NCBI GenBank assembly: GCA_000727475.1
Contig: KL647290.1
Location: 1,424,910 to 1,488,909, forward strand
DNA from: Sarcocystis neurona
Lineage: Eukaryota > Apicomplexa > Conoidasida > Eucoccidiorida > Sarcocystidae
Direction: 5' to 3'
Length of the DNA stretch: 64,000 nucleotides
The notes below the pieces were generated by a model that was not told where the DNA came from, did not search any database, and worked only from the letters and a program-made list of their open reading frames with translations. Position numbers and translations under genes: made by a program. Below, in pieces: positions 1 through 39,800 of this stretch; position 1 is the first letter of the stretch, and each line of letters opens with the position of its first letter.

Positions 1-3000
1 TACGCCCGCCGAGTGAAAGGTCTCTCGTACAGCAGCAGCACCCGCGGCAGCAGCAGCAGGAAGAGTAGCAGCGGCATCACCAGCAGCTGCAGTGGGAGGA
101 CCCTCAGCAGCATCACTTGTGAGAAAGTCTAGCAGCAGCAAAGGCTGTTGCCTTTGCGATGCGTAGCGTAGTGCTGCTGACGCGTAGTAGGAGAGCAGCA
201 GCAGAGCGACAAACAGAAGGTGCATAGGGAGAAACTGGAGCCCCAGGAAGTCAGAGAGCGTCTGGACGATAGGAGGTCGGAAACCCCACAAACTGATGCA
301 GCCGACGGTGGAAGTCGTTGTTACCGAGCGGTTTGAACGCCGTTTCTGCTGCTGCTGCTGCTCCTCCGCACCTTCTGCAGAGGGACCTGCAGCGCGTGCA
401 CCAGCGGACACCGTTGTCGCAGCAAGAGCAGGTGGAGCAGCTCCGTCTCCTCCTTCTCCTTCTCGAGCAGCAGCAGCAGCAAGACAACCACCGATGGCCG
501 CAGCAGCTGCAGAGAAGATCCTATCGCCGCTTAAACCACCACCAACATTAGTAGCCACATGCAGACCTCTTTCCTCTCGGCCCAGAGCAGCAGCGATTCG
601 AGAAGGAGGAGAAGGACCAGCAGCGAATCCCTGCGTGTCAGCATCTTCGCGCCCACCAGCACAAGCAGCAGCAGCAGCACCGGGTAAAGAGGCGCACACA
701 GCAGCTGGAAGAAGAGGAGCGGTAAGAGAGGAGTCGCCACCAGCGGTTCGAAAGAAAGAGGCGTCACGTGAAGTCCTGGCAGCAGAAACCGCTGCACGAG
801 ACAGAGAAAGGGCAGACGCCAGCCCTTTCTCTGGTGGAGCATCCCGCTGAAAAACGCATGCAGCGGGGCCTCTGTTCGACCATTCATCCCACCGCGCCCG
901 AAGGCGAGAAGCTGTTGCTTCGCTTTCTGCTGCTCCTTCCTGCAAGGTGTCACTTCCTGCTGCAGCTCTTGCTTCTTCGCTGCTGGATACGCCGCAGTAT
1001 GCAGCAAGAGCAGCAAGGTCCCGTCCTGCAGCGTCTGCGAAGGTTGCTGTTGGAGCATCTGCCGCCATGCGGACCCGTCCCGCCTCTGTTGCTGTCGACT
1101 CTCTTTCTTCTTTCAACGGCGCTGCTGCTGCTCCTTCAAAGAACAACCGCGTCGCTGCTGCTGCTGTCGCCCTGCCTGCCGCTGCTGCTTCTGCTGCAGC
1201 GACGTTTCTCACTGCTTCTGCTGCTGCTAGGAATCCTTCTCCAGCTTCTTCTTCTCCAACTGCTGTGTGTGGGGCTGCTCCGGCTGCTGCTGTGCGTGGG
1301 GTTGCTGCTGTTGGGCATGTGGTCATCTTTGCCACGGGTCCCTGACGTAGCTGAGGGCTCGACCCTGCGATAGGGCAACCAGCAACGTGCTGCTGCTGTT
1401 CCTGCTGCTCCGGCTCCAGCTGCTGCTGCTGCGGATGTGCCAGCCGCCCCTGCTGCCGCCGACGGTCCATCTCTGCGTGAAGAAGCAGCAGCAACTGCGC
1501 GAGAAGCACCAGGAAAAGGTAGTAGGCGCTACATGCGGCCACCAGAGCAGCAAGGGTACAAAGATTCTCCACACATAAAATGCGGAAGAACAGGAGGAGA
1601 CACGGTTCCGCGTGCAGTTCCAGCGTTTCCACGCCTGGCCATGGTAGCAGCACTTCCTCGGCAGCTGTTGCCTGCGTCGCTGCCGCACGAACGCCAGCAG
1701 CAGCAGCAGCAGCTGGAAGAGCAGCAGCAGCAGCTTGAGGACCACCAGCAGCAGGAGGGGCAGCAGGAGGAGGTGGAGCCGCAGCAAAGTGGGAGAGTGC
1801 GGGTGTCGCACCAGCAACAGAGACAGCAGGAGGAGAAGGAGCAGCTGGATAGGCCGTAGGAGCAGCGCGTTCTCGGAGAGCAGCAGTCGCAGCTGAAGAG
1901 TAGGGGAAGAAGTCGCTACTGTGAATCGCTGCATGCGGAGAAGCTCCGTCTGCAGCAGGCAGCAGCTGCAGCAGCAGGAGGAGGTTCTGGTGCAGCTGCG
2001 CTTTCACCAGCGCTTCTCGCTGCTCCAGGACGCCGTCCATCAGATCGTCGATTGTCCCGCCACCGGCGTGCTCCTGTGCTGCGGCAGCAGCGGGAGAAGC
2101 AGCAACAGCGGGAGAATCAGCAGCAGCGGGAAAAGAAGCAGCACCGGGAGAAGCAGCAGCACGGGGAAGAGCATCAGCAGCCCCCCTATGCGCTGCCTGA
2201 GCAGCCCCAACAACAGAAGCACGTGCTTTCACCGCAGCAGCGCGCGTGTCCCCGGCATCAGCAGAAGAGCCGTCCGTCGCATTGGCACCAGCAGCAGGAA
2301 GAAGGGACCTTTTCCCGACACTTGCAGTAGCAGCAGTCTTTCTCTGAGCTGTAGCGGCACAAGCACTACTCTCCTTCAAAGGGTCAGGACGCTGCGCAGC
2401 ACGTCTGTTCCTTGCCATTGCAGCAGCAGGCCGCCTCCGCTTTGTTGCTGCAGCAGCAAGACTGCACTGTCCAGCCAGTTGCGAAGGGCAACTCCGTCCT
2501 GCTGCAGCAGCAGCAGCAGAGAAACGCCTGTGCGCATGACTCACATTGACCTTGCTGTTGCTCAGAGGAGCGGAGAAACGCAGCCGCAGCGTATTAAAAA
2601 GCGAACTGCCTTCCTTCTTCGGCAGTAGTTGATGGGCTAGCAGCGCATCCAAAGGCAGCAGCAGCAGGCGCAGGCTGCCGAGCAGCAGCTTGCGAAGCAG
2701 GCTCGCAGCTGCTGCCGGCAGCAGGTGCGGGACAGACGCAGAACCAACACCAGGAACGCCTTCCGCTGCACCACGGGCAGAAGAAACTTCGTAAGGAGCG
2801 CCTCCGTCCTGCACCAAAACAGCAGCAGAGTCCCCGGCCTTCGAAGTGGGAGCAGCAACAGCAAAAAGGTGGTGGACCGCCTCAGAGCGTGGAAGAGCAG
2901 CTCGTGCAGAAGAAGACTCGGCCTCAGCAGCAGCGGCAGCAACCGAGCGATGACGACCCCCTGGCACTGCAGCAGTATAAACAGGAGGACGGTTCAAAGA

Positions 3001-6000
3001 GTTGGCTGCAGGGGCGACAAAGACGGAAGGAAAAGGAGAGGCGACGGGGCCGAGATGGCTTGATAACAGAGAGGCAGAAGCAGTAACACAGGCAGGACGC
3101 TGCTGCGGCAGTGGCTGGTCGGCGGGCAGCGGGAAATTGCTGGCGACCACCTTCTGTCGTTCTGGCAAAGGAAAACTGACGGCGTGCAGCAGCACTTGTG
3201 GACAGGGAGGGCCGAAGGAAGAAGACGTAGAGGGAGCACCGGCGGCGGCAGCCGCAGGTCGGTTCCACAGGAATGAAGTGCTACACTCATACGCAGCCAG
3301 AAGCACGGCAGTCGAGGACGCAGCAGAGGCATCAAGCAGCAAATTGTTCTGCTGCTGCTGTTCTCTTTCCTGCTGCTTCACCACCACCTTCCCTGTCTCC
3401 TGCGCCAGGCGCCGCGCCACTTGACCTGTCGTTTGTGTGGTCGCGACCTCACCCAGCTGCTGCTGCTCCTGGTGCTGCTGTTGCTGGTCCTGGTGCTGCT
3501 GTTGCTGGTCCTGGTGCTGCTGTCGCTGGTCCTGGTGCTGCTGTTGCTGATCCCGGTGCTGCTGTTGCTGATCCCGGTGCTGCTGTTGCTGATCCCGGTG
3601 CTGCTGTTGCTGATCCCGGTGCTGCTGTTGCTGATCCCGGTGCTGCTGTTGCTGCTGCTGCCGTTGCTGATCCTGTTGCTGCTGCGGATCCCGGTGCTGC
3701 TGCTGATCCTGGTGCTGCTGCTGAACCTGCTGTTGCTGGTGCTGCTGCGTGCGGTTGACGTGGACGTTGTACGGGAGGAGATAGGCGAGAGAGGGCGGGA
3801 GGGGCAGCAGGAGAAGCAGCGGCGGAGGAGGCAGCAGGAAGTCTGCCTCAGCAGCAGAGGCAGGGTTGCCTGTAGCAGTGAATGTTGCATGTGCCTTTAA
3901 CGGGCAGAAGGCAGAAAGAAAGAAGCAGAGGAATGGGCACGAGCTGCAGAGGCGAGAAGATAAGAACGAGGAAAACCGGCAGGAGAAGGCGAACTGCACC
4001 AAAGGAGCAGCCTGCAGTGTCGACGCAGGCAGAAACGCTGCTCTACCACGTCCCGCTGCTGCTGCTGGGCCCAGCAGCACCCCTCCTCGTCCTGCTGCCT
4101 CTGCGAGTTCCGCTGTTGCTGCGGCGCCTGCTCGCCCTGCTGCTGCTCTTCCGCGAGCTGCGGCTGCTGCTGCGCCGGAGCATTCTGTTGCCGCTGTTGA
4201 CACCGCGGGGAATCCTGGCGGTGCTCCAGGACGACGAGGAGAGCGGGTGAGGAGAAGTTCATCCTCTGCCGCTGCTGCGGGCACGTGGTGCTGCTGCTGC
4301 TGTGTTGTTGGTGCGGAGTCGCAGGCCGCACCTGCTTCTCTGCCACCGTTGCAGCTGCCTGCTGCTGCAGTCCGCGCAACAGCAGCGTCTTGCTGCGGTT
4401 CGAGAAGAGCTGCAGCACCAGCATCTGGCCGCACGCGCCAGGAGAAGAGCCTCGCTCTCTGCCGCCTCTGCTGCAGTTGCAACAGCTGAAAATTCTTCTT
4501 CTCCCTCTGCTTCCCGCGGCCCTGCTGCCGCGGCGTCTCCTTCTGACGCTGCAACACGTGATACCTACGACCCGACGGCTGCTGCTGCTGCTCCTGCTGC
4601 TCGAGCAAGGGTCCCTCCTGTGCGTGCTGCTGCTGCTGATGCGAGGGCTTCTGCTGCTGTTTTTTCTGGAGACGAGGAGGCACGGCCACAGCGTAGATTA
4701 ATGGAGGCAACTTCGTCTCGAGATGCTGCTGCCTCTCTGTCTCCCTGCCTTGCGACTCGCTCTTCTGATGTTGCTGTGTTACTGTCGTTTGCTGTTGCTC
4801 TTGCTGCTGTTCGTCGCCGCTCCTCTCCTGGAGCTGCTGCCTCTCCGGTTTCTGCTGCAGTTGCTGCAGCTTTCCTTCCTTCTCCTCCTGCTCCTCTACC
4901 ACCTCTTTCTTCTGCTGCGGCTGCTCTACCTGCTGCTCGTCCTTTTGCTGCTGCTGCTCTTCCTTCTCCTGCTGCTCTTCTTCCTTCTCCTCCCGCTGCT
5001 GTATTTCCTTCTTCTGGCGCTGCAACAGCAGCGAGGGAGGCGAGTAGTACGGCAACGCAAAGGAGCACAGACTTCGTGGGTACGTTGCAGCAGGGGAAAT
5101 GTTTGGCCGCAGGGCAAAGAAACAGAAGGTAGCGCTCGCGTCTGCAGCCCCTGACTCCGCCGCAGCAGCACCACTGCTGCTGCTCTCGTTGCTGCTGTCA
5201 TAATTGCTCCTGCTGCTGCAGCTCGTGTTGCTGCTGTCGTAACTGCTGCTGCTGCTGCTGTCGCTCCTGCTGCCGCTGCTATCGTTACCGCTGTTGCTGC
5301 TGCTGTTGCCATTGCTGTTGTCGGTGTCCCTGCGGGTGAATGGGTCTGTGGCCGTTTGAAGAAGTCGGAGAAAATTAGTTTCTTTGCATGCGAGTTTTGC
5401 TGCATTCCGCACTCCCACAAACACGAGCGCGGGAAGCTTTGCTTCTCTTTTCCGTCCTTTGTTGTACGTCGCTTCCTGCGGCGACCTCCTTCTCCTCCTA
5501 CTCTGCTGCTGCCGTTTCTCTCCCTGCGCAACGTCGAAAAACGTGGGAGCCTGCGGCTGCTCTTCGAGGCCCGCAGGAGCACAAGCAACTTCCTCCGCTG
5601 CTGCTGCCTTCTCCTCTTCTTCTCTTCTCTTCAACTCGCCAGCTGCGGCAGTTGCTGGTGTTGATACAGCATGTGCAGCTCTTCGCTGCCGTGCACACGA
5701 AAGATGAGTCGCAGCAGCGCGACATTCTCCGAGAGAAACCATAGCAGCTGGTTGCTGCTCTGCTTCGTACTGAAAAGCCAGCGCATGCTGCGCCGCGGCC
5801 GCCGGGGAACCATCTGCTTGACGCTCTGCTTCTTCTTCTTCTTCCTTGTCTGCAGCAGTAGCAGCAGCACCGGCCCCACGCGGTTTGACAGCTGCAGGAG
5901 TACGCGTGTGGGGTTGCTGCTGGGAGGTGGGGGGAGGCGGCACAGAAGCTACGACGTGCTGTTCAGCTGCGGCAGAAGATGAAAAGTCTTCCTGCTGACC

Positions 6001-9000
6001 TGCCGCGGATGCAGGAACAACAGCGGCTGCTTGCTGCCCTGCCTGTTCCTCCTGCTGCAGAGCCTCAGCAGATCGTGCTACCCCAGCATCGTATCGCGAT
6101 AGCGTAGATACAAAGTTGATGCTTTGGCCGCTGGTGCTGCTGCTCCCCCTCCTGCTCCAGCTGCTCCAGTGGCTTCTCCTCTTCCTGTGGTTCATGCTGC
6201 TATTGGTGCTGTTGCTATTGGTGCTGTTGCTACTGGTGCTGTTGCTATTGGTGCTGTTGCTATTGGTGCTGCTGTTGGTGCTGCTGCTATTGGTGCTGCT
6301 GCTATTGGTGCTGCTGCTATTGGTGCTGCTGCTATTGGTGCCGTTGTTATTGGTGCTGTTGCTGTTGCTGCTGTTGCTATTGCTGCTGTTGTTATTGCTG
6401 CTGTTGCTATTGCCGCTGTTGCTGATCTCTATGCTGCTGTCTTTGCTTCCGTCTTTGCTGCTGTCTACGGTGCTGTTGCTGCTGTCTATGCTGCTGTTGC
6501 GGCTCTTCCTGCTGCTGCTGCTGTTCTCCTCGCTGTTTCTGACTCTGTCCCTCCGGCCACCGTCTGCATCTGGTGGTTTTGCCCATGGCGGAGCGCAGCC
6601 AGCACCGGTGTTGGCGAAGTTCAGCAGCAGCATCGAATCTAGGACGCCCGGTGCTGCAGCAGCCGCAGAGGCCCCCGCGGCACCAGCAGCGGCGCCGCCA
6701 CCTCTGGCACCAGCAGCCGTACCGGCAGCAGCAGTGACAGAAGAAAGAGCAGCAGCAGCAGCAGCGCTTGAAGCAGAGGACGGGGAGAGAAGCGGGGAGA
6801 ACTCGTGAGGGAGCAGCGACGCAGCAGCAGGAGCGGCACAGGCGACAGCAGGAAAGAAGAAGGTTGACGGGTAATCGGCCGGAGACACGCTTCTTTCGAA
6901 GATATACGACGGCTTTTTTGACACCTCTGCTTCTGCCAGCTGTTGTTCTGCATGCACTTCTTCTGCACGCAGTTCTTCGGCAGCGGCACGGTCCCCGGAA
7001 GAGGAACAAAAAGGTGGAGAAGAGGACGGAGGAGGAGAAGAGGGGGATGCGGCAGGGGGCAACGAGGAAACCGAAGATGAAGAAGGGGAAGGCAAGAAGG
7101 CGGAGGACGAAAACGAAGAAGGAGAAGGCCAAGAAGAGGAAAGCGATGGGATACGGCCAGGGGCAACAGCAGACGGAGACGCAACTGGGACAATTTCATG
7201 AAGGAGGTCGTTCAGGTGCTCCTGCCAGTCGCTATCAACTTCCACTACCACCGACACCAGTTGCTTTCCTACCCACAGCACTTCCTCGCTCCGCACAGGA
7301 GAATCTCGCTCTTCTTCCGGCTGCTCCTCTTCCTCCTGCTGTTCTTCCTGCTGCTGTTTCCCCTGCTCCGGATGTTCCTGCTGAGGCTGTTCCTGCTGCT
7401 GCGTGTCCTGCTGCTGCGTGTCCTGCTGCTGCGTTTCCTGCTGCTGCTGTTCCTGCTGCTGCGTGTCCTGCTGCGGCTGTGCCTGTTGTTGCTGCTTTTT
7501 CTCCGGTCCTTCTTGCAGCTCCTCTTCACGTTCCTCGTTTCTCTTCTCTTCCGACTGCTGCTGCTGTTGTTTGATGAGCTGCCGCATGACCGTGAAGCGT
7601 CTGCATGCATTTCCCCAGGAGACGCTGCCGGTCCTGCTGCTGCCCTCCCGCAAAAAAATCGCCTCCTCCCAATCGCTGCTGCTGCACATGTCATCAGCAG
7701 AGCAGCTGCGACACCGCACCCAGTCCTCTTCGTCGAACGGCTGCAGCATTATCAATCCGGACTCCTGCTGCTGTTCTCCCTGGCCCTGCAGCTCTTGCTC
7801 CTCAAGCTGCTGGGCGTGTTCCTGTCGCTCTCTCCATTCTCTCTGCTGCTCTACGTGCTGCTGCACATGCTTCTGAAGCTGCTGGACCTGCTGGTGCTGC
7901 TCTGGTTGCTGCTGATGCTGCTGGAGTTGCTGCTGCTGCTGCTCTAGTTGCTGCTGTCCTTGCTGCTGATGCTGCTGGAGCAGCCGTAGCTTCTCTGCCA
8001 CGAGCGAGAAAAACCAGGCCTGGGGTGTACAGACACCGTGCAAGAGTGCCGATCCGCCGGTGTTTCTGTTTGCTGCTGCTTCGCCTTCTGCCCGCAGCAG
8101 CTGCTGCAGCAGCACATCCTCTTCTTCGTCTCGAAAGCTGCAGAACTCAGGAAGCAGCAGGGAGAAGTTCCAGTTAACGTGCATGTACGGGTTATTCCAC
8201 CCGCTGCTGTTGCTGTTCTGTTTGCATCGGTTGCTTCCGCTGCAGCTGTCTCCCCTTCCGCTGCTGCTGCTGCTGGTTCTGCTGCTCCGGTTGCTGTCCC
8301 TGACGCTGCTGTCATCACCGGTGCTGCTGCGGTACGTGCCTCTGGTCTCGCTGGCCCTGCAGTTGCTCACTTCGCCGTTCCTGCTGCGGTGCCTGTCGCT
8401 ATCGCTGCTGTTCAGTCGCCGGACTCGCTGCTGCTGAAGGAGACGGAGCGGGTGCAGCTCGAGCAGAGGGGAGACGAGACAGCGCTGCAGCGTGCTGCTC
8501 GTGAAAAGCAGCGCCTGGTGCAGCGGCAGGAGCCACAACCGCGAGACGTTGGCTGCAACTGCAGCAGCAGCAGCGTCAGCCGCAGCGTCAGCAGCAGCAG
8601 CGTCAGCCGCAGCGTCAGCAGCAGCAGCGTCAGCAGCAGCAGCATCAGCAGCAGCAGCAGGCGCAGTAGCAGCAGCAGCAGAAATGTCAGCTACAGAAGT
8701 GGTACTTCGAGACGCGAAGAACGAAAAGGCAGAGTCCTGTGTCATCGATGTCGACGCTGTTGCAGCTGCCACAGAAGAGGAAGCTGCTGCAGACCTCTTG
8801 CTTGAAGCAGGAGCAGCCCAAGTAGCCGTGCCGCCACCCAGAGTCGCAGCAGCAGCAGACGAAAAAGAAGAAGGGAAGGACGAGGAACTCGTAGAGATAG
8901 CAGTTGAAGGCGAGGAAGCAGGAGGTGTCTTCCCGCTGCTGAAAATCAACCACGCAGCACTGCTTTGAAAAATTTCTCCCCTCGACTGCTGCTGCTCCTC

Positions 9001-11155
9001 CTGACCTCTCCTCAGCAGCTGCAGTTCCTCTGGGGTATGTTGCTGCTGCTTCTTCTTCTGATAGGACGTCCCTTCTGTTTCCTCCTGTTCAGGCGGCTGC
9101 TGCTGCCTGTTCACTTGGTCTGTTTCCCCACCCCGACGCCGTGAATCCAATCCTTCTTCCCCTATCCTCCGCTCCTGCTGCTGCTGTTCCTCCTGTTCCT
9201 TCTGCAGCTGTTCCTGTTGCCGCTGGCTTCGCTGCTGCTGCTTCGAGCGCTGCAGCAGAGCAGTCTGAGGCTTCTGCTGCTGCTGGTTGACTACAGCCAA
9301 ATGCCGGGCCAGTTCTGTGAGAGAATCAACGAGGGAGACGAGAAAGACTAGGAAGCGACGGGAGAGCAGCACGTTGTCATGGTTGAACTGGTGCACCACC
9401 TCCGGCAGCGCAGTCGTAGGGAGACACACATGCAGCAGCACAGGCCAGTAGCACACGACAATCTCAGCACTTCTGCTGCTGCTGCTTTCTTCTTCTCCAT
9501 ATTCAGCTGCTTTCCCTTCTCCTGCGGCTGCTGACGACTGGACAACTGCTGCTGCTGATGTGGAGAGAGTTCCTGCTGCTGCTGCGTGCGGCGTTTGTTG
9601 ATAGGCGTCTCCTGCTGCTGGTGACGTTGCAGCTACTGCACCTCCTGAGGAAGTGGCTGCTCCTGCTTTTGAGAGCGCTGCCGCACGAGAGATAACGACA
9701 GCGGCGTCCCCGGCGGAGAGATGGAACGGGAGTCCAGCAGCAGCAGGATCAGCAACAGAAGACGAAGGAGCAGCAACAGCGGCAGAAGGAGAAGCAGCAG
9801 CAACAGCTGCAGGAGAAGCAGCAGAAACAGCAGCAGCAGCAGAAATGGCAGCAACAGCAGAAGCAACAGCACACGAAGAAGCAGCACCGACGGCAGAGGA
9901 AGATACTGAAGCAGCAGCATTAGCTCCGTCAGCAAACGACGGGGACCCACCCGTCCCCTCCCCTTCCTGTTCTGGATCCTGCTCTCGCTGCTGCTGCTGT
10001 CCCTGTTCCTCCTCCTCCTGCTGCAGTTGCTGCTTCCGTTGCTGCAGCTGCTCCCCCTCCTTATTCTGCGTTTGCTGCTTTTTCTGCTGCTCTTCTCCAT
10101 CGTGCACCTCCTGCCTCTGCTGCGTTCTAATCTGCTGCTGCTGTACCTCCTGCGGTACCTGCTGCTGCTGTTGTTGCTGCCGTTGCTGCTGCTGTTGCAG
10201 GGACGCATACGGGCAGAAGCGCTCATCACTTGCGAGAGCGAGAGCAGCGAGAGGATCCCGCACAGGAAAAGGAAACGCCAGCGGAGGGGCAGCAAGTGCC
10301 GGGGAGATGAGATTGTCCTTCCACCCCGAAGAGAAGGAAAATAAAAATGTCACCGGGGGGAGCTTCGCCACAGGTCTGTCTCGAACCGATGCAGCAGCTG
10401 CTCCTGCTGTTGCTGTTTCTGTAGCTGCTGTTGCTGCTGCTGCTGCTTGCTCGTTCGTTTTACTTGCAACTGCGGCTACGGCACCTGTTGCTGCCGCCGT
10501 AGGCAGAGGACCATGCGACGAGAAGGTACGGCGCATATCTGCTGCCAGGTAGGAGTAGAAGCGCTGCACCAGCGGCGTGGCGCGCAGCCAAGGAATAGGA
10601 GCCACCGGCGTGTTGACGGTTATCACCGCCAGAAATGGCAAGTCTGAGAAATCGAACGACACTGCCGCTCTTCCTCGTTCCCCTCCTCCTCCTCCTCCTG
10701 CTGCTGCAGCTGCGCCTGCTGCTGTTCCTGTTAGTGTTGCTGCGGTTGCCAGCCGTGTCGGTGGTGCAGGCAACGATGCTGCTGCCGCATGGTTGTCTTC
10801 TCCCGTCCCACTTTCGCTGCTGCCGCTGCTGCCGGTGTTGCTGGTACGCCTGCGGGGGCTGCGGGCAGTTGGCGGACGCAGACCGGCGGTACTTTCCCAC
10901 TTAGAAATCGCATGCAGCACCGCCAGCCCTCCGAAAGAGTGCCCAAGGATGATGATAGGAGAGTAGCGCTGCTGGGTTTCTGAAAAAGCAGCAGCAGCAT
11001 CCACAGTAAAAGTGTTGGACAGTTCGCAGCAGCAGCAGCAACGAAGAGGAAAACGTGCGCCAGAGCAGAGGAGCAAGACATGAGACAGAGCAGCAGCAGC
11101 AGCGTCAGCAGCAGCAGCATCACCAATCGCAGCAGCAACGGCATCAGAACCGGAA
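1..11155 (-). CDS. PGAP1: PGAP1-like GPI inositol-deacylase, giant 3-prime exon (runs off the left edge)
   Basis: PGAP1 is an ER membrane lipase that removes the acyl chain from the inositol of GPI anchors. This minus-strand frame has no stop from 11256 to base 1. It carries family landmarks in order: the serine-lipase elbow GHSFGG (10944-10927) after YSPIIIL; the segment VITVNTPVAPIPW with LVQRFYSYL (about 10650-10545), matching the family TPH..P block; LRGWKD (about 10335); VVHQFNHDNVLLSRRF with the likely catalytic His at 9381-9379; a Cys/Trp block DWVRCRSCSADDMC (about 7730-7680); and YPSTFFFPAVA (about 6865-6841). Hydrophobic segments at about 1560-1480 and 240-165 fit the C-terminal membrane region. 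Between landmarks lie long Gln, Ala, Ser, Asn and Glu tracts. Animal PGAP1 is about 900 residues; this exon alone exceeds 3650 codons. The 5-prime boundary is uncertain (acceptor near 11156 or near 10979), and small unseen introns are possible. Confidence 0.82.
3464..3654 (-). repeat. 21-bp tandem repeat encoding HRDQQQQ/HQDQQQQ
   Basis: About nine 21-bp units sit inside the PGAP1-like frame. The left units encode HQDQQQQ and the right units HRDQQQQ, so the array is split into two nearly homogeneous sub-blocks. The unit is a multiple of three, so copy-number change keeps the frame. Confidence 0.85.
6196..6420 (-). repeat. 15-bp-type tandem repeats encoding Asn/Ser/Thr
   Basis: The plus strand repeats GCTATTGGTGCTGTT-like units. 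In the PGAP1-like frame they read STNSN/STNSS and then SNSNN. Asn/Ser/Thr-rich sequence of this kind is hydrophilic and could carry N-glycosylation sites (N-S-T and N-x-S/T are frequent) if it is lumenal. Confidence 0.8.
7380..7490 (-). repeat. 15-bp tandem repeats encoding DTQQQ/EQQQQ
   Basis: Repeated TGCTGCGTGTCC-type units on the plus strand read QQQDT in the coding frame, within the PGAP1-like exon. Confidence 0.75.
8555..8670 (-). repeat. Ala/Asp tandem repeats (ADAAA)
   Basis: The plus strand shows GTCAGCAGCAGCA-type units. The coding frame reads repeated ADAAA. This is one of the places where the same CAG-family tract is read as Ala rather than Gln. Confidence 0.75.
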
Positions 11156-12286
11156 CTGACAACTGCCCCAGGAGCAGCGATGGCAGCAGCAGCGACGGCA
11201 GCACCAACAGGAGGAGAAAGTCCAGCCTCAAGTGCAGCACCAGGAGGAAAGGAACGTCACACACACCAGCACGAGAAGCAGCTCGAGGAACTGCAGCAGC
11301 CGCGGCAGCAGATGCGGCAGAAATCGTAGCAGCAGAAGAGGGCCAGCAGCGGCAAGCACAAAGCAGCAGCAGCAACAGCAGGAGAACAGCACCCGGAGGA
11401 GCAGCAGCCGCAGCAGGGAACGGAAGAGCAGCAGCAGCTGGCTTGAATTCCCCACGAGCTGCTTCCACAGCAGCAGCACCCTGCCACCCATCCCCCCTTC
11501 CCCCGCCCCAGGCGCTGGCCTCACAGTCACCTGCAGCAGTCGACAAGCAGCAGCAGCAGCGCGGTACCATCAATCGGCGCGGAAATCGTATCTACACCGC
11601 CGAGCAACTTCTCCAGCAGCAGGCACCCTTGAGGAAGCTTCTTCCTCTCTCTCTCCATATATATATATATATATACACACATGACACATACAAAGTTGTG
11701 CACTCATCTATATATCTATACCTATATACTTATATATATATATACGTACGTGTGCTGACACATACAAACTTGTATATTCATCTGTACCTATATACTTGTA
11801 CATATATATATATATATATGTGTACTGTATTGACACATACAAAATTGTATGTGCACGTGCAAGTCTCTATCTATATCCTCATATATATCTGTATATATAG
11901 ATACATATATACACGTACGTGCATGTACATATACCCACGTACGTATATAAGTATATATATATATATCGCGAAAGCAGACGTATAGGCCTGAATTATTTGT
12001 TACCTGGGTGACAGGCAAATATGTGTAGAGGTATAGAGAGAAATGTGCCTACCCACCTGCCAAATACAATTCTCCTTCCATACAGGCGAGTGGTGCACCT
12101 CAGGAATAGATAGGGTAGATATACCTTCCCCTATAACAGCAGCCATACGCGAAGATACACTTACACATATCCATACGTTTATATATATATATATGTACAT
12201 ACGTATATACAAATACATTTACATATACATATATATATATAGGGTTTCTTGGCTTCTTTAAGTGGGTCTGGTGTCCGAGTAGGTAC
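11156..12286 (-). other. Proposed PGAP1-like intron with TA-rich minisatellites
   Basis: It holds (TA)n tracts and a minisatellite of about 75 bp (11682-11905) between the two coding exons. About 240 bp of less repetitive sequence near 12000-12180 shows no supported exon. Its right end uses the proposed donor at 12286. Confidence 0.5.
11682..11905. repeat. About 75-bp minisatellite, three copies
   Basis: TGACACATACAAA recurs at 11682, 11756 and 11831, spaced 74 and 75 bp. Each copy is followed by a cATCTnTA...CTATATACTT block and a TA run. Copies are diverged and lie in a proposed intron. Confidence 0.75.
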
Positions 12287-12474
12287 GCAGGAAGAGCGAG
12301 CGAACGAGGGGGCGAAAGAGGGAGAAGAAACCGACCAGGACGAGCGGCTCCGGAGGTAGCAGCCGCAGCAGCAGCGGCAACTTTCGAACTGCTGCTGCTG
12401 GACGGAGGGGGGGAGGGCAGCTGCCGCTGGTAGGTGTCTCGCAGCTGCGCGAGGCACAGCAAAATGAAGTCCGC
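12287..12474 (-). CDS. PGAP1: PGAP1-like gene, exon between the FNEE and GHSxGG exons
   Basis: A pyrimidine-rich acceptor ending tggcag precedes base 12474. The exon opens in phase 0 with ADFILLCLAQLRDTYQRQ, which continues the preceding exon's MVERQ. Together they match the family helix that follows FNEE (a Q..Y/F-V/L-x-AI..IL.LY pattern). The rest is Pro/Ser- and Ala-rich linker. The best donor I see is at 12286 (gtacct), giving 62 codons plus 2 bases; that phase fits an acceptor at 11156. Weaker donors exist upstream, so the 3-prime end is a proposal. Confidence 0.65.
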
Positions 12475-12613: not shown

Positions 12614-13667
12614 AAGTATAGGCCCATATATATATACAGAGCACGTATGTATTCCTTTCGTGCACGTCGCGCAGGACACACAAGTACGACATTACGCAAG
12701 CGTCTTCCTCATATTTGAACCTATTCACATATACATGTGTACATATATATACATATATATATATATATATTTGTACACATATACATATGTATGTATTTGT
12801 ACACACACATATACATACATATGTGCATATATACAAATATGTGTGTATACACACGTAAACATCCATACGCATATATATATATACACGCATCTATACTAAT
12901 ATATGTATCCTGCAACACATGCGTGTGTCTCTGGGTGTTAATTAATATGTAAACATGAACGCTAATGTGTAGACCCCTAGTGCAGCGGGCAGCAGGAGGT
13001 CCTCTGATATCATGTAGCTGGCGCAGGTTGAAAGACAGTAGATACTATCAGCTTCCCTTCCTTCTCTTTCTGTCTCACTTCTTATTTTTATTCATCTTCT
13101 CGTTTCTTTCTTCTCTCCGTTGTCTCGGGGCAGACCGCTAGCCGTCCGCTGCTGCTCCTGCTTCTTCTACCGCTGGGCTACTGTTGCTGTTGCTGCTGCT
13201 GTCTCTGCTGCTGTTCTGCGACCAGGGCTGCTGACGCTGTTTCTGCTGCTGCTTCTTCGCTGCTTCTGGTTCTGCTGCCTGCTGCTGCTTCTCCTGTTTT
13301 TGCTGCTCCTGCTGCTTCTTCTCTCTTTGTTGCTCCTCGTCGTGCTTCTGTCTCTGCTGCTGCCGCTTCCCTTCTTTCTGCTGCTCCTACTTTTGCTGCT
13401 CCCGCTGCTGCTGACGCTGCTTCTTCTGCTGCGGTTTCTTGCGTTTTTGCTGCTCCTGCTGCTGCGTCTTCTGTTTCTGCTGCACCGGCTGCTGCTTCTT
13501 CTGTCCGTGCTGCTCCTGCTGCTGCTGACGCTGCTCACTCTGCTGCTGCGGGTTCTGCTCATTCTGCTGCAGCTGTCGCTGCCGCTTCTGCCGCTGCTGC
13601 TTCTGTTTTTGCTGCTGCTGCTGCTGTGCCTCTGCCTCTGCTGCTGCTGCTATTTTTGCTGCGGTAC
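12475..13667 (-). other. Proposed PGAP1-like intron with AT minisatellite and CTG tract
   Basis: On the plus strand 12580-12960 is TA/CA-rich microsatellite and 13140-13660 is nearly continuous CTG/TTC triplets. Readings of the CTG block give poly-Leu on plus and Ser/Arg or Gln on minus without any PGAP1-like segment, so I treat it as intron. The flanking exons join in phase 0 across it. Confidence 0.55.
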
Positions 13668-14727
13668 CTGTCGCTCGACCATGCGTGGGTGAAGAGCAGA
13701 CGGTTCCTCGTTGAAGTCTGCGGCGTAGACGTGCACTTCGACTGTTGCTGCAGCTGCCCTTCGCAGACCCTTTCTCCTTTCTCTTCCCCTTTTTCTCCTC
13801 GTTTTTTTTCCTCTCCGTCGCTGTTCTCTTCTCGCAGCGCTGCTTCCTGTTGTACTGCCGCCTCCGTCTCCTCCTTTTGCAGCTTCCGTTGCTGCTGTCC
13901 CCTCCGCGTCTGCTGCTGCCTCTCCGCCTGCTGCTGCTGCTTTCTTAAACCGCCTCTCTTCGGTAGTATCGACGCTCTCTGCGTCATCTTCTTCATTTCC
14001 TCCTCCCTCTCCTTCTTCTGCGTCTCTTCCTCCTCCTTCTCCAGCTGCCGTTTCTTCTTCTTTTCCTTCCTGCTGCTGCTGTTCTTGCAGAAGAGAGGAA
14101 TCGAACTGCAGGATCCTCTCAATCTCCCTTATTGCTGCAGCAGCCTGCGGCCACGCCTCCGCCAGGCTTCCCAGCTGTGCGTCGGTAAAAAATAACACGG
14201 CAGGCCTTTCACCATCTGGTAAAAAATCTCCTTTCCTTTCCCTCTTCTGCTGTCCCTCCTCCTCGTCCTCTTCCCCTGCGTTCTCCTCGTTCTCCTCCTC
14301 GGCCTCTTCTGCCACTGCTGTTGCTGCTGCCCTTCCCTCCGCAGCACTTTCCCCGTCCCTCCACCCGCCCTCCTGCTGCTGCTTCTTCTTCTGCTGCTGT
14401 CGGCGCTGCTGCTGCTGCTGTGCTGCTGCGACAGCGAGTTGCCGCACCACTTCCACGAGGCTGCCTGCCTGCGCGTACGATCCCCTGTGTCCATGGACAA
14501 ATAACAGAGGAACACGTATGCGATGACTTCCTCTCTTTTCTTCTTCTTCTTCCCTGCCTTCGCCTTTTTCCTTTCCTTCATCTTCTTCTCGACCGTTTCG
14601 TACAGCTGCTCCTGCTGCTCCTCCTTCTCCTGCTGCTGCTGTCACATCTGCGCTCTCCTCCTCGTGCGGCCCCACCGGGAACAAACGCCGCAGCTTGTAG
14701 AACGCAGGGGCTGCACGCATAACACAT
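13668..14727 (-). CDS. PGAP1: PGAP1-like gene, 5-prime catalytic-domain exon
   Basis: The acceptor tttttccctgtgtag ends at 14728 and the donor CAG/gtacc lies at 13667. The exon reads CVMRAAPAFYKLRRLFPV near its start, like the conserved C-x-M...P-x-Y segment that follows the N-terminal membrane anchor of PGAP1. RVPLLFVHGHRGSYAQ follows at about 14516-14470, matching the VLFIPGNAGSYKQ strand-turn of the lipase fold. Near the 3-prime end VHVYAADFNEEPSALH matches the FDFFxVxFNEExxAL block. Between the last two lies an insertion of roughly 230 residues rich in Glu, Gln, Ala and Lys, where known homologues have only a few residues. The exon is 353 codons with phase-0 exit, joining cleanly to ADFILL. 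The N-terminal anchor exon must lie upstream and was not found with confidence. Confidence 0.8.
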
Positions 14728-17321: not shown

Positions 17322-18900
17322 ATGAAGGCTGCGGCTAGCGCGTGGTGTGGCTACCGCGTGGGGGTGGGGATGCTGCTGTTGACTGTCCTGGTGGCCGTGT
17401 TGCATCGGCTGCTGCACGCGCTGCTGTTAACTACTTCGCTTGCTGCTGTCCCTGCGTTTTCGCTGTCGCTCCTGCTGCTGCGGGACGATGTTGCAGCTGC
17501 TCCTGCTGGGGCTGCTGACTCTGCTCTCGTCCTTGCTGCTCCTGCTGCTGCTCGGCTGCTGCTGCTGCTCGGCTGCTGCTGCTGGTGTTGGCTGGCTGTC
17601 TAGGTTCCTGCTACTCTTGCTGCTGCAGACGCCTCCGCGAGTGGCGTCGTGGGTGAACTTCTGAAAAAGCTTGACGTGGCTCTTCTGCACCTGTGCTGCT
17701 GCTGCATGCTTTGTTGCTACTTATTCGCAGCTACACTTTGCTGCTGCTTGTTTGCTGCTGCCGCTGCCTGCTTGTTGCTGGTGCTGCGTTTTTGCTGCTG
17801 CTACTGCTGCTGCTGCGTCTGTGCTGTTGCCGCTGCAAGCCCGCCGCTGCAAGCCCGCCGCTGCAAGTGCGCCGCTGCTGCTTCAGCTGCTGCTGAAGCT
17901 TCTGCCTCTGGTGCTCCTGCTGCTGCTGTACGTGGGTCTGTGCTGCTTGAGTTCCGGCTGTCGCTGCAGCTTTTGGCTCTGCTGTTGTCTAACCATCGGA
18001 AGCGGGAAGCGGCACGACAACCTCGCGGAATGCTGGGCGGACGCGATCTTTCCGTTCTTCTTCTTCTTCTGCAGGGCTGCTGTCGCTCGGAAAGAGGCCA
18101 GGAAGGAAAGCAGCTGTCAGCAATACAGCAGCAAGCAGCATCAAATAGAAAAACAATATACGGCCCACCCAATACAGCAGCACCTTTCCTCCTGTTCTCC
18201 ACTTCCAGCGCTTTCTGCTGCTGCCGCTGCCCCGTCTGCCGTCCCTCCTGCTGCTGCTGCTGCTGCAATGACTCCTGCTGCTCTCCCTGCTGCTGCTGTT
18301 GCAGTTCCTCCTCCTGAGGTTGCTGCTGCTGTCGCTGCTGCTGCGGCAACTGCTACTGTTCCTGTAGCAGTCCGTGCTGCTGCTTCTTCTTCTGCGGGAC
18401 GGATCCCCGCGTTCTCTACGGTGCTGCAGAAGAGGAACGCTGGTGCTGCTGTGCCGCAGCTGGTCTTCTGCGGCCGCTGCTGCTACTGCTGTTCCTTCCA
18501 TCCTTCCACGTGAGGTCTTCTCTCCGCTTCAGCTGCTGCTTCTGATGCAGACGCTGCCGCTTCAGCAGCAAAAACTGCCATCCGCTCTCCTGAAGAAGAA
18601 AAGGAAAACGGACAGGTAGAGGAAGGAACAGCAGCTGCTTTTCTTGCCTTTCGCACACCAGCAGCGTGCGTTGACGCTCCTTCTCTCTGTTGCTGCTGCT
18701 GCGGCTCTCCTCCCCTTCCTCTCTGCTGCAGCTCCTGTGCAAGACGGTGAACTGCTGCTGCGGCTGCTGACGAAAGGTGCTGCTCCTGCTGCTGCTGCTG
18801 CTATCAGACGTGGCCCTGCGGCAGCAGTCGCCTTCGCCGCGGCATCGTCGTCGACGTTGCTGTTCACAGGCGAAACGACGCTACTTTAAGCAGCTTCTGA
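17322..18900 (+). CDS. Possible Ala-rich protein gene, exon structure unresolved
   Basis: I do not recognise this gene. An ATG at 17322 opens a hydrophobic stretch (MLLLTVLVAVLHRLLHALLL) that could be a signal or anchor. Further on, plus-strand frames give Ala/Ser/Val/Pro-rich and charged segments, for example IRSPEEEKENGQ near 18588-18615 and PVQDGELLLRLLTKG near 18740-18780, both with plausible acceptors. The sequence is CTG-dense and several frames are open on both strands. A minus-strand frame at 18501-17989 also carries a good membrane segment (LLYWVGRILFFYLMLLAAVL at 18180-18121). Strand is therefore uncertain. The plus strand is preferred because two segments combine non-repetitive charged residues with AG/GT flanks. 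Confidence 0.3.
18533..18615 (+). CDS. Candidate exon of the 17.3-18.9 kb gene
   Basis: The acceptor cttctctccgcttcag ends at 18532 and the donor CAG/gtagag begins at 18616. The frame gives AASDADAAASAAKTAIRS followed by PEEEKENGQ (2 bases plus 27 codons). It is hydrophilic, free of Leu/Cys runs, and flanked by good splice signals. No family is recognised. Confidence 0.4.
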
Positions 18901-25748: not shown

Positions 25749-27968
25749 CTAAGTGTTGGTGGAGGTCACATGCAGACTCACTTCAAACAAATATTTCTCA
25801 AAGTCTCCTTCTTCTAGATGAGGCGGCGGATGCAGCTGCACGAGTTGCGACGGCCCCAGTTCAAAGTTTTCACTCTCTGCTGTCATATTTCCTTCATCTT
25901 CATGGAACAGCCAATCTTCTTCTTGTTCCTCTTCCTCTTCTTTAGTTCCCTTCTCTTCTTCTTCCAGTTCTTCGTCTTTGACGCGGTTTATTTCTGGCGC
26001 AGCAGCTGCTTGCTTCTTCATTTCTCCTTCGCCAGCTGCCATCTGAGCAGCTGTTCGTGTCTCCCCGCTGCTGTGGTCAGTGCTGCTTCTCGCTGCCGCA
26101 CTCTTCCCATCTTCTGCTGGTCGCCTTTCTGCTGCTGCCTTTGGTTCTGCTGTTCCTGTTGCTGCTTCTCTTCCTACAGCTGCTTCTCTTGATGCAGCGC
26201 CCCCAGCCCTTGTTGCTCCTGCTGCTGCTGTTGCTCCACCTTCTCCTCCTGCTTGATCTTCTTCACAAGAGAACTGCTGTTCTTCTGGTTCAAAAGAGCC
26301 CATCGCCCTTGCTTCTGCTGCGTCTCTTTCTTTTCTAATGATCTGCGCGGCTGCGCCTCGTCTCCTCCTCCCTTCGCCGGCAAATAAACACGTATCTTGG
26401 CTTTGCTGCGTGCTCTCTACATTTCCTGCTTCCTCTGCTGCAGCTTCTTCTTCTTGCTGCTTGTGCGGCTGCCCGATGTCAAACGGCTGCTCCTCCATCT
26501 CTTCATCGTATCTGCAAATGCTTGCTGCATGCACCGCCACATAGCGGCTGCTGTTCTTTTCTACATCGCTTTCCTCCTGCGACGTCATAGCCGTCCTCTC
26601 CTGCCTTTGCATCACTACCCCATTGCTACCCTTGCTACTGCTGCTGCTGTTGCTCCCCCTATTGCAGCTGTTGTTGGTGGTGTCGCTGCTGCTGCTGGGG
26701 TTGATACTCCTGCTGTTGCTATTGCTGCTGCTATTTTTACTTTGGCTGCTGCTCTTGTTGTTGCTGCGGATCTGCTTGCTGTTGCCCCTGCCGCTAAGCG
26801 AGTTCTGCGAGTGAGTAGACAAGCTGCTGCGAGTGCTGTTTCTCGTGGTACTCGACGCGTCGGACACGCTCTGGCTGCTCTCGCTCCGGTTGCTGTTCCG
26901 CATGTCCTCGCCCGAATCTTCATCAAAGAAACTGCTACTGCTCTTGTTGCTGCTGCTGCTACACCTATTGCTGCTGCTGCTGCTCCTCTTGTTGCTGTCG
27001 CTCTTGTTGCTGCTCTCGTCGTGATAATCGCTGTTGTTGCTCCTGCTGCTGTCACTGTTGTTCGTGCTGCTGCTATTATTCTTGGTGCTGCTGCTGCTGT
27101 TAGCGCGGCTGCTCCTATCGCTGCTAGTGGCTGCCTTCAGGGAAGTTTCTCCTGCATGCAATCGCCTCGTGCAACTGAGGGGCATTCGTCGTTTTCCGCA
27201 TTGCAAAGAGACGCAGGTGCGTCTTTTCTCTTTCTCTTCAAAATTCGAATTATATACAGCAGCAGCAACGGTTTCTCCTGCTTCCCTCCAGGATGCAAGA
27301 GTAGACAACGGCTCAGCTGCTGCTGCTGCTGACTCCTCTTCGGCTGCTGGTGGTGTTGGGGCTGTCGCTGTTGCTGCTGCTACTTCTGTTTTCTCTTCCG
27401 CCGCTGCCTCTGTTGCTACACTGATGGCTGCTTTCTTTCTTGCAGTGCCAGCAGCCCCAGCGGCCGTCAGCGCAGCATCGCAAGCTACCTCTGGCACGGG
27501 TGTGAGAGGAGACTGCTGCTGTTCCTCCTGCTGCTGCTGCTGTTTCTCTGTGAAGGACTGATTTGTTTCTTCTTTCCCTTCCCTCTGTGGGCTGCTGCTG
27601 TTGCTCTCCAGGCGACTCTTGGCTGGAGCAGCAAAAGTCGCCGCAGCAGCTGCTGCAATTTGCTGTGCATGCGGATGCGCATGCAACGAGGGGTCCACAT
27701 ACGTCCACGTCCGCAGGCATTCCACGACCCACAGGGGAGTCACGACTTCAAGTTTATCAAATTTTGAGGACTCTGCTTCACTTCTTTTCTCGCTCCCCTG
27801 GTCCTGCTGCTCCTTTCCCTGATGTTGGTTCTTCCCCTGCAGTTCCGGCTGCTGCGCAGCTGCGTCGATGCTGTTGCAGCGCAGGGGACTGAAGTGTTCC
27901 GGGCAAATTAGAACTGCGCGCTGATGCTCCTTCACGTCTTCCGTCACCGCTCCTCCACTCAACGTTAT
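25749..27968 (-). CDS. FCP1-type BRCT-domain protein, last exon
   Basis: The acceptor cctcttttgtag precedes 27968 and the exon starts in phase 0 with ITLSGGAVTEDVKEH, then AVLICPEHFSP. After about 60 low-complexity residues comes FDKLEVVTPLWVVECLRTW followed by TYVDPSLH. This is the last strand and WxxxC/S helix of a BRCT domain, closest from memory to the FCP1 CTD-phosphatase BRCT (VVNPDWLWSCLERWDKVEE). The remaining about 600 residues are Gln, Ala, Ser/Asn and Glu rich, ending with an acidic segment (EEEEKGTKEEEEEQEEDWLF) and a stop at 25749. The acidic tail with aromatic residues resembles the acidic tails of FCP1 proteins that contact TFIIF, but that is weak. 740 codons including stop. 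Confidence 0.65.
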   Translation of the reverse strand: MTLSGGAVTEDVKEHQRAVLICPEHFSPLRCNSIDAAAQQPELQGKNQHQGKEQQDQGSEKRSEAESSKFDKLEVVTPLWVVECLRTWTYVDPSLHAHPHAQQIAAAAAATFAAPAKSRLESNSSSPQREGKEETNQSFTEKQQQQQEEQQQSPLTPVPEVACDAALTAAGAAGTARKKAAISVATEAAAEEKTEVAAATATAPTPPAAEEESAAAAAEPLSTLASWREAGETVAAAVYNSNFEEKEKRRTCVSLQCGKRRMPLSCTRRLHAGETSLKAATSSDRSSRANSSSSTKNNSSSTNNSDSSRSNNSDYHDESSNKSDSNKRSSSSSNRCSSSSNKSSSSFFDEDSGEDMRNSNRSESSQSVSDASSTTRNSTRSSLSTHSQNSLSGRGNSKQIRSNNKSSSQSKNSSSNSNSRSINPSSSSDTTNNSCNRGSNSSSSSKGSNGVVMQRQERTAMTSQEESDVEKNSSRYVAVHAASICRYDEEMEEQPFDIGQPHKQQEEEAAAEEAGNVESTQQSQDTCLFAGEGRRRRGAAAQIIRKERDAAEARAMGSFEPEEQQFSCEEDQAGGEGGATAAAGATRAGGAASREAAVGREAATGTAEPKAAAERRPAEDGKSAAARSSTDHSSGETRTAAQMAAGEGEMKKQAAAAPEINRVKDEELEEEEKGTKEEEEEQEEDWLFHEDEGNMTAESENFELGPSQLVQLHPPPHLEEGDFEKYLFEVSLHVTSTNT

Positions 27969-36801: not shown

Positions 36802-39800
36802 CTAAAACACAGCAGCAGAAGCAGAAACCGAAATAGCAGCAGCAGCAGGAGGATGAAGGGAAGAGCGCAGCGGCAGACAGATACAGCAGAGGGGTCCCCT
36901 GCCGCCAGTGAATTCCTCTGGAAGGGTTGCGTATCTCACTCTTCTGGCTGCGCGCGTTTCTTCGTCTGCTGGCTGCTGCTTCGATGTCCCGCCCGAAGGT
37001 AGCGCCTTCAACACGCCGCACGCAGACGCGTGCCTACTGCTGCTGTTGCCGATCTTTCCGCCAGTGCCGCTGCTGCTTCTTTCTTTTGCATTGCTGCTGC
37101 CCCGCTTTTCTTCGCCGCTGCCGCGGTTCTCGTCGCTGCTGCTGCAGCTGCTGCTTCCATTGCTCTGCGGTCGCTGCTGCAGCAACGCATTCCTGCTTCT
37201 CTTCCCACCTGCTGCAGCGGCTGAGGAACTCCGTTGCTGTTCCTCTCCCGTCGTTCGCGGACGCTTCCTCTGCTGCTGTTCCTTCTCTTCAGAAGTCGCG
37301 GCAGCAGGAGCAGCAGCAGCGGACGATCTTCTTCCTGCTTCTCTCCCCCACGTTGCTGCGCCGTTGTCGCTGCTGCATTGCCTCTTGTCTTTGCTAGTAC
37401 TGCTGCTGCTGCTTCTTGCAAGACACTCTCTGGCACTTCTTCTGCAGCTATCCGCATTACCACCCCAGCTGCGGCTCCTATCCCTTTTGCTGCTGTTCCT
37501 CCCCCCCGCGCTACTGCTGCTGCCGCGACTTCCTGTCGGGTTGCTGCTGCCACTGCCCCGGGTGCTGGTGCTGCTATTGCCGCCGCCACCGCCAACGTTG
37601 CTCGACTTGCCAGCGCGGCCGCTGCACCGGCTGCTGCTATTTCTGCGTTGGCTGCTGCGGCGGCGGTTGTCGCTGCTTCTCTTGCTACTGCAAAGCGAGT
37701 CTTTTTGTAGTTGCTGTCCTGGAGCATTCGAATCTCGTCTGCTGGTGCTGCTATTGTTCTTCCTCGTCTTCGCCCAGCGAGATGCAACATTGCTGCTGCT
37801 TCGGTTTCTCGAATATTTCTGCTGCTGCTGAGACAGCTGCTGCGGGTGCTTCCTCTTTGTGGCGCTCCTACTGCTGCTCTCCTCGAGAACCGCTGCGACC
37901 TTCACACTGCTGCTGCTGTTGCGCTGCCCCGGAGGCCTGCCTCTCCCCCTTCGTGTCGGGCCGCCATCCGTTCTTTCCTGCTGCTTCTGCTGCTGCTCTC
38001 TCTGTCGCTCCTCAGTCTCCTGCTTCCCTTTCTGTTTCTCTTGCTCCACGTTTTCCTGCTTCTGTCCCTCCTGCTGCTGTCTCTGCTGGTGCTGTTGCTT
38101 CTGCGGCTGCGGCATCTGCTTCTGGGACTTCTGTTGTTGCGGCTTCTGCTGTTGCGACTTCTGCTGCTGCTGCTTCTGCGGTTGTGGCTTCTGCGACAGC
38201 GACTTCTGCTGCTGCTGCTCCTCGTCCACCGGTCCCTGAGGCGACTCGATCGTAGTGCGCTTTCCACACACGTAGATATTCGTGCTGTAGCGACTGCTGC
38301 TTTGATCTGCGAAGCCAATCCGCTGCAGCAGCCCCTGCTGCGCCCTGGGTAGATACAACGCCGCTGCAACACCTGCTGTCGCATCTCCTTCTGCCGTATG
38401 TGATGCGGGCGGGTCTCCCGCTGCTGCTGCTGCTTTGCTTCCTGCTAGTGCTGCTGTGGACTTTCTTCCTGTTGCGGCTGCTGAATCTCCGGCTGCTGCA
38501 GCAAAACCACTCCTATCTCCCTGTATTTTTGAAGCTCTTCCATATCCGTCTGCTGCTGCTGCAAGTCCTGCTGCGCCCGCGGCTCCTCCGCTGCGGCCGA
38601 CGCTGCTGCTGCTGCCGTTGGTCAAACTGCTCTCAAAATTCTGACCGCAGCTCCTTTGGCTGCCTCCGCCGCTGATGGAGGAGCTGCTGCTGCTACTCCC
38701 GCTTTGATTGTTGCTTCCTGCGCTGCTGCTACAGCGGCTTCTCCCCCTCTTGCTTCCGGAGCTGCTGTTGCTGTTCTTTTGTTCGGTGCTGCTACCGGAG
38801 ATGCCGCTGCTCATAAGAGAATTGCCATCGGTCGCAGAGCTGCTGCTGTGGTGGTTGCTTACAACGCCCGCACGTGATCCCTTGCCACCACGCGGAGGAC
38901 GCTGCGCAGCCGCAGCAGCAGCGATGACTTCGTTGGCGTTAATTCGACCGGCAGCAGCACCATCCGACGTTGTCGCTGCAGATCCACCAGCACCGCTGAT
39001 GAACTCTTGCTGGGCAGCAGCAACCTGCTGCAGCCCGCCATCGCCCCGACCTGCCTGCTTCCTTCCCTTTCCACGATTTTGCTGCTGTTGCTGCTGCTGA
39101 AAGCGTGGCTGCTGCGCCTTCTGCGGCCGCGGCTTCAGCTCTTCGGTCGCTGTTGCTGCTGCTGCGCATGCGCTGGTACTGGGCGGCGCAGAGTCTGCCC
39201 GAGATCCAGAGGCAGCAGCAGTTGACGTGGGCGATCTCCCACGCTGCGCCGCTACTGCTCCTGCTGCAGCCTTTGCTGCTACTTCTACTGCTGCTGCTGC
39301 GTCTGCTGTTGCTGCTGAGGCGTTCTCTGCAAGTGCTGGTGCTGCTTCTTCTGGGGCTTGCACTGGCGTTTTTGTGACTGCTGTTGCTGCTGTGGACTTT
39401 CCTTTTCCTGATGTCGCTGCGACTCTTTTTCCTGCTACTCCCCTTTTTGTCGCCGCTTCTTTTGCTGCTGGTGCTGCTGCACGCCCTGCTGGGTCTCTTA
39501 TTCGTCGCGGCCCCGTCCCTGCTCCTTCTCCTCCGCCACCTGCTGCATCATCTGCTGCCTGTTGCTCTCCCCCCCCTTCCGCGTCGCCTCCTCTTTTTCC
39601 TTTCCTTCCTCCTGCTGTTGCTGCCTTCGCAGTTCGACCTGGCGCTGATGCCGCTGCGGGGCTGACTGCCGCTGCCCGCGCTGCTGCCGATGAACCTGCT
39701 GCTGCTCTGGCAGGATCTACTGGTGTTTTGCCTGCTTCTACTGCCGCCGAAGCGGCTGCTGCTTCTGCTGGAGCGGCTGCTGCCGCATTTTTCGACGAAA

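Follow-up and report, generated by a model that had tools for sequence, protein, structure and literature searches.

The minus strand of a 64,000-nucleotide stretch of the Sarcocystis neurona genome (contig KL647290.1, positions 1,424,910 to 1,488,909; the whole stretch is referred to as the window) most probably carries a gene for a PGAP1-family glycosylphosphatidylinositol (GPI) inositol-deacylase of a coccidian-like apicomplexan, which as judged from profile matches and alignments would consist of at least three exons, the last of them an unbroken coding exon of 16 kb. The PGAP1 identity is evident only after the upstream exons have been added. Exon 2 without any editing (window positions 13664-14726) matched PGAP1 in Pfam with 27.1 bits against a cut-off of 24.3 (E = 4.4e-6) and this was the sole family found at E<=10, whereas the 3,752-codon frame inside the window, on which the original prediction of a PGAP1 gene had been based and for which it had suggested a profile search, gave no family at E<=1 when scanned alone. 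The predicted identity is thus supported, but the deciding matches come from composites that include exons 2 and 3, which lie upstream of the interval originally considered.

Exon structure

The original prediction described a minus-strand frame without stop codons from position 11256 to the edge of the window (3,752 codons), and this frame was found exactly as described. Position 11256 had been given as the start of the frame, but it marks the preceding in-frame stop and is no gene boundary, and exon 4 probably begins at 10979 instead, given the pyrimidine-rich acceptor (TTTTTCAG/AAACCC, with the slash at the splice site here and below) and the phase. The expectation that a gene finder would miss the gene for want of a stop reflected the edge of the window, since the same frame stops 4.7 kb past it, at C3:1420161-1420163 (L003:5251-5253), after a total of 5,334 codons. 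The exon map, in window positions, is as follows.

18085..18186, minus strand: candidate N-terminal transmembrane (TM) segment KVLLYWVGRILFFYLMLLAAVLLTAAFLPGLFPS, from hydropathy and position only; it would be TM1 of PGAP1
13668..14727, minus strand: exon 2, with CVMRAAP (loop 1), VPLLFVHGHRGSYAQ and YAADFNEEPSALH; pyrimidine-rich acceptor, donor CGACAG/GTACC
12336..12474, minus strand: exon 3, with ADFILLCLAQLRDTYQRQ; acceptor TGTGGCAG/GCGGAC, 3' end inferred from phase
10980..11256, minus strand: part of the open frame upstream of the exon 4 acceptor, probably intron from acceptor sequence and phase
1..10979, minus strand: exon 4, the part in the window, with the lipase core, repeat-rich inserts and the first hydrophobic segments; runs on to C3:1420161

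In exon 2, VPLLFVHGHRGSYAQ is the counterpart of PVLFxPGNAGSYKQ and YAADFNEEPSALH that of FxVxFNEExxA, and in exon 3 ADFILLCLAQLRDTYQRQ is the counterpart of KFVHECIKTILKLY. The donor of exon 3 (G/GTCGGT) was chosen for fitting the phase and is weak as a donor. The candidate N-terminal segment sits in an open stretch (17992-18528) that is a putative exon with an unmapped join to exon 2, and a Pfam scan gave no PGAP1 match for this segment. A run of five Cys is present in 10980..11256, and no Cys run of at least five occurs in the frame from codon 93 on. The distance from DFNEE to QADF, measured across the inferred intron, is 18 residues both here and in macaque PGAP1, whereas the gaps are longer here in the other six of the seven neighbouring block pairs (71/49, 262/38, 46/23, 114/33, 96/42 and 316/39 residues, here/macaque). 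Exons 2-4 together would encode 5,634 residues with a short exon 3 and about 5,640 with exon 3 as drawn, and 58% of exon 4 is of low complexity. The protein had been predicted to exceed 4000 residues, a figure that understated the length deduced here (macaque PGAP1 has 922 residues).

Family assignment

Hand-picked and joined blocks scored 58.0 and 59.9 bits against Pfam PGAP1. Given that hand-picking of blocks can flatter the score, automatic entropy filtering was added, with exons 2-3 and, from exon 4, the first 600 residues as input. The two looser of three filter settings were scanned (the stricter one kept 117 residues and an earlier first filter 57), and the resulting composites matched PGAP1 (PF07819) with 49.3 and 55.7 bits (E = 7.3e-13 and 7.8e-15), while nothing in Pfam matched the same filtered blocks when reversed. 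When aligned with hhalign to a reference made of human PGAP1 and Chaetomium PGAP1, the hand-picked blocks gave a probability of 97.7 (E = 1.4e-12) and the filtered blocks 97.6 (E = 3.1e-12), compared to 0.3 for the filtered blocks reversed. The alignment spanned the GxxGSYxQ block, DFNEE, GHSFGG, NTP and the GWKD aspartate in succession. In the 123-Mb assembly all eight matches of the composite fell at the PGAP1 locus.

The gene could in principle belong to some other alpha/beta hydrolase family (SERAC1/DUF676-like, monoglyceride-lipase-like or ABHD) and resemble PGAP1 by chance, and in that direction point the scores of Abhydrolase_6, which exceeded its cut-off of 26.3 on three of the four composites (28.5-30.9 bits; 20.6 on the fourth), and of DUF676 (PF05057), which came near its cut-off of 20.3 bits but stayed below it on all four (15.9-20.2), as well as the top matches of the composite in the PDB, which were monoglyceride lipases (E = 0.05). 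This explanation is nevertheless very improbable, as PGAP1 was far ahead on the four composites (49-60 bits versus 21-31 for Abhydrolase_6 and 16-20 for DUF676), exon 2 alone matched PGAP1 only, and the SERAC1-like and ABHD-like frames of this genome, judged by eye from their translations, sit elsewhere, on C30 and C15.

Several other candidates were tried and rejected. A real PGAP1 elsewhere in the genome was rejected given that the composite hits only the PGAP1 locus and that the two genome matches to PF07819 at E<=0.001 were read as belonging to other families; from inspection by eye we take the frame at L006 4466-5479 (minus strand) to be SERAC1-like and that at L005 4193-6139 (plus strand) to be ABHD-like. 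Further copies of the gene were also rejected: a DNA search gave 193 matches and, among the matches listed, those off the locus were cross-hits between repeat tracts. A RAP1 match (E = 0.0013, below cut-off) and a TBP match were dropped as they consisted mostly of low-complexity sequence. The window frame had only low-complexity or chance matches in the PDB, where the composite found weak lipases and others; NCBIfam gave one weak match, and Rfam and tRNA scans gave nothing useful. A C13 peptidase, a member of the family to which the catalytic subunit of GPI transamidase belongs, is also encoded in the assembly, in a frame of 848 codons.

Coding character of the open frame

The frame is coding-like along its whole length. 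A chance open frame in repeat DNA was rejected on the basis of the stop counts in the other five frames of the same 16 kb (90, 120, 63, 82 and 84 stops, with a longest open run of 363 codons) and of Markov simulations (40 each at orders 1, 2 and 5), in which no open run exceeded 822 codons. In dinucleotide shuffles of 27 pieces of at most 200 codons each, about 128 in-frame stops were expected in total and none was seen; the shuffled frequency of zero stops was at most 2.5% in 24 of the 27 pieces and 6.5-10.5% in the other three. The phase of the repeat tracts is a further sign of coding that does not depend on stops. From frame codon 93 onward, the 20 perfect CTG tracts of at least four units encode Ala 17 times, Leu three times and Cys never, and the CAG tracts (n = 32) read as Gln in 14, Ala in nine and Ser in nine; neighbouring tracts are non-independent and the counts are hence given without a probability.

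The stop counts alone may be compatible with in-frame introns of about 100 codons, and the gene could then be a PGAP1 in which many of the repeat-rich stretches are spliced out as in-frame introns, leaving a protein far below 5,600 residues. Room for short introns of this kind is left by the three pieces with the higher shuffled frequencies, the region 11256-10980 is open and yet probably intron, and the start of the inferred intron 2 (13148-13651) is rich in repeats and in G+C and open for 185 and 82 codons in another frame. We consider this alternative unlikely: other inferred intron sequence of the gene has 41-50% G+C and many stops, as compared with 58-62% G+C for the frame inside the window, the absence of stops was rare under shuffling in most pieces, and the predominant Ala phase of the CTG tracts would not be needed if the tracts were spliced out.

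Catalytic residues and membrane segments

The following candidates for the catalytic residues were found, and their order (Ser, Asp, His) is that of PGAP1.

10927..10944, minus strand: nucleophile elbow GHSFGG, Ser codon 10938-10936, aligned by both MAFFT and hhalign
10315..10317, minus strand: candidate catalytic Asp in SSGWKD, aligned by hhalign to PGAP1 SVAGGFRD / SIAGGGLD
9379..9381, minus strand: candidate catalytic His in QFNHDNVLL, aligned by MAFFT to the histidine of PGAP1 DH; outside the range of hhalign

The position of the Asp depends on the method, as hhalign aligns the Asp of GWKD and MAFFT puts a different D there. According to PMC10761859, the triad in the Chaetomium enzyme (cPGAP1) is Ser327, Asp407 and His443, and a conserved disulfide joins Cys177 and Cys449, the C177S substitution nearly abolishing activity. 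A loop-1 Cys at the start of exon 2 stands where Cys177 is expected; all three MAFFT rows were begun there, so that this part of the alignment is partly by construction.

Some 2,600 residues follow the lipase part; much of this stretch is of low complexity, and it contains hydrophobic patches and patches of Cys/Trp, among them a Cys/Trp-rich block at frame residues 1174-1200. A hydropathy scan (19-residue windows with a mean of at least 1.7, Ala-rich windows dropped) detected six hydrophobic regions downstream of the lipase part, which were taken to represent 8-9 helices; residues 599-617 in the lipase part were also flagged and not counted. The regions, all on the minus strand and all from hydropathy, were as follows.

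1468..1605, minus strand: 46-residue hydrophobic region, read as one or two TM helices
169..252, minus strand: hydrophobic segment, one TM helix
Outside the window (L003), minus strand: hydrophobic segments at frame residues 3757-3809, 4097-4142, 4687-4721 and 4923-4955

PGAP1 is expected to have ten transmembrane helices, nine of them after the lipase part, and together with the candidate N-terminal segment the predicted topology is consistent with PGAP1. The landmarks on which the original prediction relied were thus largely recovered: GHSFGG (10944-10927), NTPVAP, the HDN histidine (codon 9381-9379) and the Cys/Trp block are present, whereas the motif given as LRGWKD reads SSGWKD, and the hydrophobic segments exist but lie mostly beyond base 1. 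The claimed correspondence in order with animal PGAP1 was borne out for the lipase landmarks, while the hydrophobic segments agree in number and downstream position only and have no profile match.

Past frame residue ~630 none of the profiles tried places the sequence in PGAP1, which raises the question of whether two adjacent genes are read as one, with PGAP1 ending before the end of the frame. Such a fusion of two genes seems quite improbable, given that the six hydrophobic regions with 8-9 helices are what PGAP1 needs and that they lie in the same frame as the lipase core without an intervening stop.

Points against a PGAP1 with an unbroken last exon

A number of results weigh against the proposed gene. 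A Pfam scan of the first 319 codons of the frame (window positions 10300-11256) did not return PGAP1, only Hydrolase_4 and Ser_hydrolase below cut-off, and among the 16 PDB matches of the composite at E<=10 there was no PGAP1 chain in spite of the presence of PGAP1 structures in the set. Chaetomium PGAP1 used as a direct query found nothing in the genome, in a search that had no positive control, and orthologue searches in the protein database (8,000 and 2,167 candidates scored) gave none at E<=0.01, a result that is not evidence of absence. A third search of this kind returned 1,057 proteins and was of no further help, the named ones among the 120 listed being vertebrate PGAP1 and P0033 being nameless. 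The jelly-roll (PF25141, PF24660) and TM (PF25140) profiles of PGAP1 matched neither the genome nor the pieces and composites tried; the absent jelly-roll match says little, because human and Chaetomium PGAP1 themselves barely align in these parts (5.8 bits for the jelly-roll and 7.4 bits). The inferred intron 2 opens with some 500 nt of CAG/GCT repeats in which another frame is open; repeat-rich sequence is thus no mark of an exon in the PGAP1 gene, and this lowers the odds for a single unbroken exon. Finally, the position of Cys449, six after the His and Cys in both references, is occupied by a Ser (codon 9363-9361, minus strand), as judged by eye from two references. More Cys residues are found close to this Ser codon, and the apparent Cys-to-Ser change is a lead from the two references.

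The apparent loss of a conserved cysteine, together with the extreme load of inserts, would fit a decaying or non-functional PGAP1 relic. The 16 kb free of stops, the intact motif blocks and the presence of candidates for the whole triad all argue against a relic, as does the finding of no second copy among the matches listed, and we regard it as highly improbable.

For a functional PGAP1, the family would suggest a protein in the membrane of the endoplasmic reticulum (ER), with the lipase domain on the luminal side, where the Ser-His-Asp triad would remove the inositol acyl chain from newly made GPI-anchored proteins and so permit their exit from the ER. In-frame expansion of CAG/GCT repeats, followed by scrambling through point changes, might have inserted Ala/Ser/Gln-rich sequence between one conserved block and the next; the blocks themselves would have been left whole and the protein would have grown to some 5,640 residues, not counting an unmapped N-terminal part. 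In its full form, with all inserts translated and kept, this reading gives a GPI deacylase of the ER membrane that exceeds 5,600 residues and has disordered loops running through its lipase domain. The triad would then be dispersed over some 520 residues, compared with 116 in Chaetomium, and the conserved inter-domain disulfide would be lost or rewired; to the full form we hold only tentatively.

Genome context

The assembly comprises 123 Mb in 74 contigs. In another stretch of 200 kb (C1:5000001-5200000), six unmasked frames of at least 1,000 codons were found (3,672, 2,601, 2,227, 1,993, 1,915 and 1,000 codons), all of them Ala-rich and with 20-49% low complexity versus 58% in exon 4 of the PGAP1 gene; six rows from a masked stretch were excluded. 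To judge from this sample of 200 kb out of 123 Mb, giant frames rich in repeats are no rarity here, and the PGAP1 frame is the longest seen. Such frames may be typical of the genome in general, and size by itself is apparently unexceptional in it. The assembly is about twice the size of those of Eimeria tenella and E. praecox as reported (53 and 64 Mb), and its CAG coding repeats are Eimeria-like.

Elsewhere in the window, two direct repeats of 231 nt lie head to tail at 49524-49986 (97% identical), and at 46669-47108 a 160-nt unit is repeated in tandem, in 2.8 copies with 73% matches. An Ala/Ser-rich open frame of 1,044 codons at 36802-39936 (minus strand) had a weak TFIIA match below cut-off, which is probably due to low complexity. 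A 739-codon open frame at 25749-27968 (minus strand) had no Pfam match at E<=0.1; at its start we note by eye a stretch that we presume to be BRCT-like.

Comparison with known systems

With PGAP1/Bst1 (human; Chaetomium cPGAP1, PDB 8K9Q/8K9R/8K9T) the gene shares the lipase blocks in order, the Ser of GHSxGG, the Asp and His candidates, the loop-1 Cys and hydrophobic segments after the lipase part. It differs in the Ser at the site of the partner Cys, in the unmatched jelly-roll and TM profiles, and in length, which at about 5,640 residues or more is about six times the usual (922 in macaque PGAP1; 1,183 in cPGAP1, PMC10761859). Within the coccidia, Toxoplasma TGGT1_310350, which reaches at least residue 1,358 (PMC8017268), and Neospora NCLIV_054430 (PMC6803445) have been named as PGAP1 family members; the likeness to these lies in the family name, the comparison being one of published descriptions. 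The passages available on PGAP1 in Toxoplasma and Eimeria describe no giant PGAP1.

Coccidia are described as able to acylate and de-acylate GPI inositol, whereas Plasmodium falciparum and Babesia bovis cannot de-acylate it and Cryptosporidium has lost the step (PMC4851813); a Plasmodium hydrolase has on the other hand been listed as PGAP1-like (PMC9464883). Correct PGAP1 gene models matter because these two sources leave the distribution of PGAP1 among apicomplexans unsettled, and standard annotation can miss a gene of this kind: the 3,752-residue translation has no Pfam match at E<=1, and the lipase part is clearly recognised as PGAP1 once exons 2-3 are added and low-complexity sequence is removed.

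The inserts resemble the homopolymeric amino acid repeats (HAARs) of Eimeria proteins (PMC4287421, PMC9131526, PMC8785600), which are likewise Ala/Gln/Ser-rich coding inserts from CAG/GCT with Leu rare. HAARs, defined as at least seven identical A, S, Q, L or N (PMC9131526), occur in 57% of the genes of E. tenella (PMC4287421) and litter even well-conserved Eimeria genes (PMC9131526). The phase seen here (A, Q and S, seldom L) is the pattern reported for E. tenella repeats (PMC9131526), in which runs of at least seven were counted; here, in contrast, the tracts are interrupted. The 5,242 residues of exon 4 contain a single run of at least seven among A, Q, S, L and C (Q, 7), the longest runs otherwise being six for A, six for S and five for L, with no N run of at least five, and the repeats of exon 4 look more scrambled than classic HAARs. 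The case would show how far coding repeats can stretch a conserved housekeeping enzyme. The gene looks real, rightly named and larger than had been claimed; its size is apparently extreme and its kind ordinary, as coccidian PGAP1 and repeat-littered Eimeria genes have both been published already.

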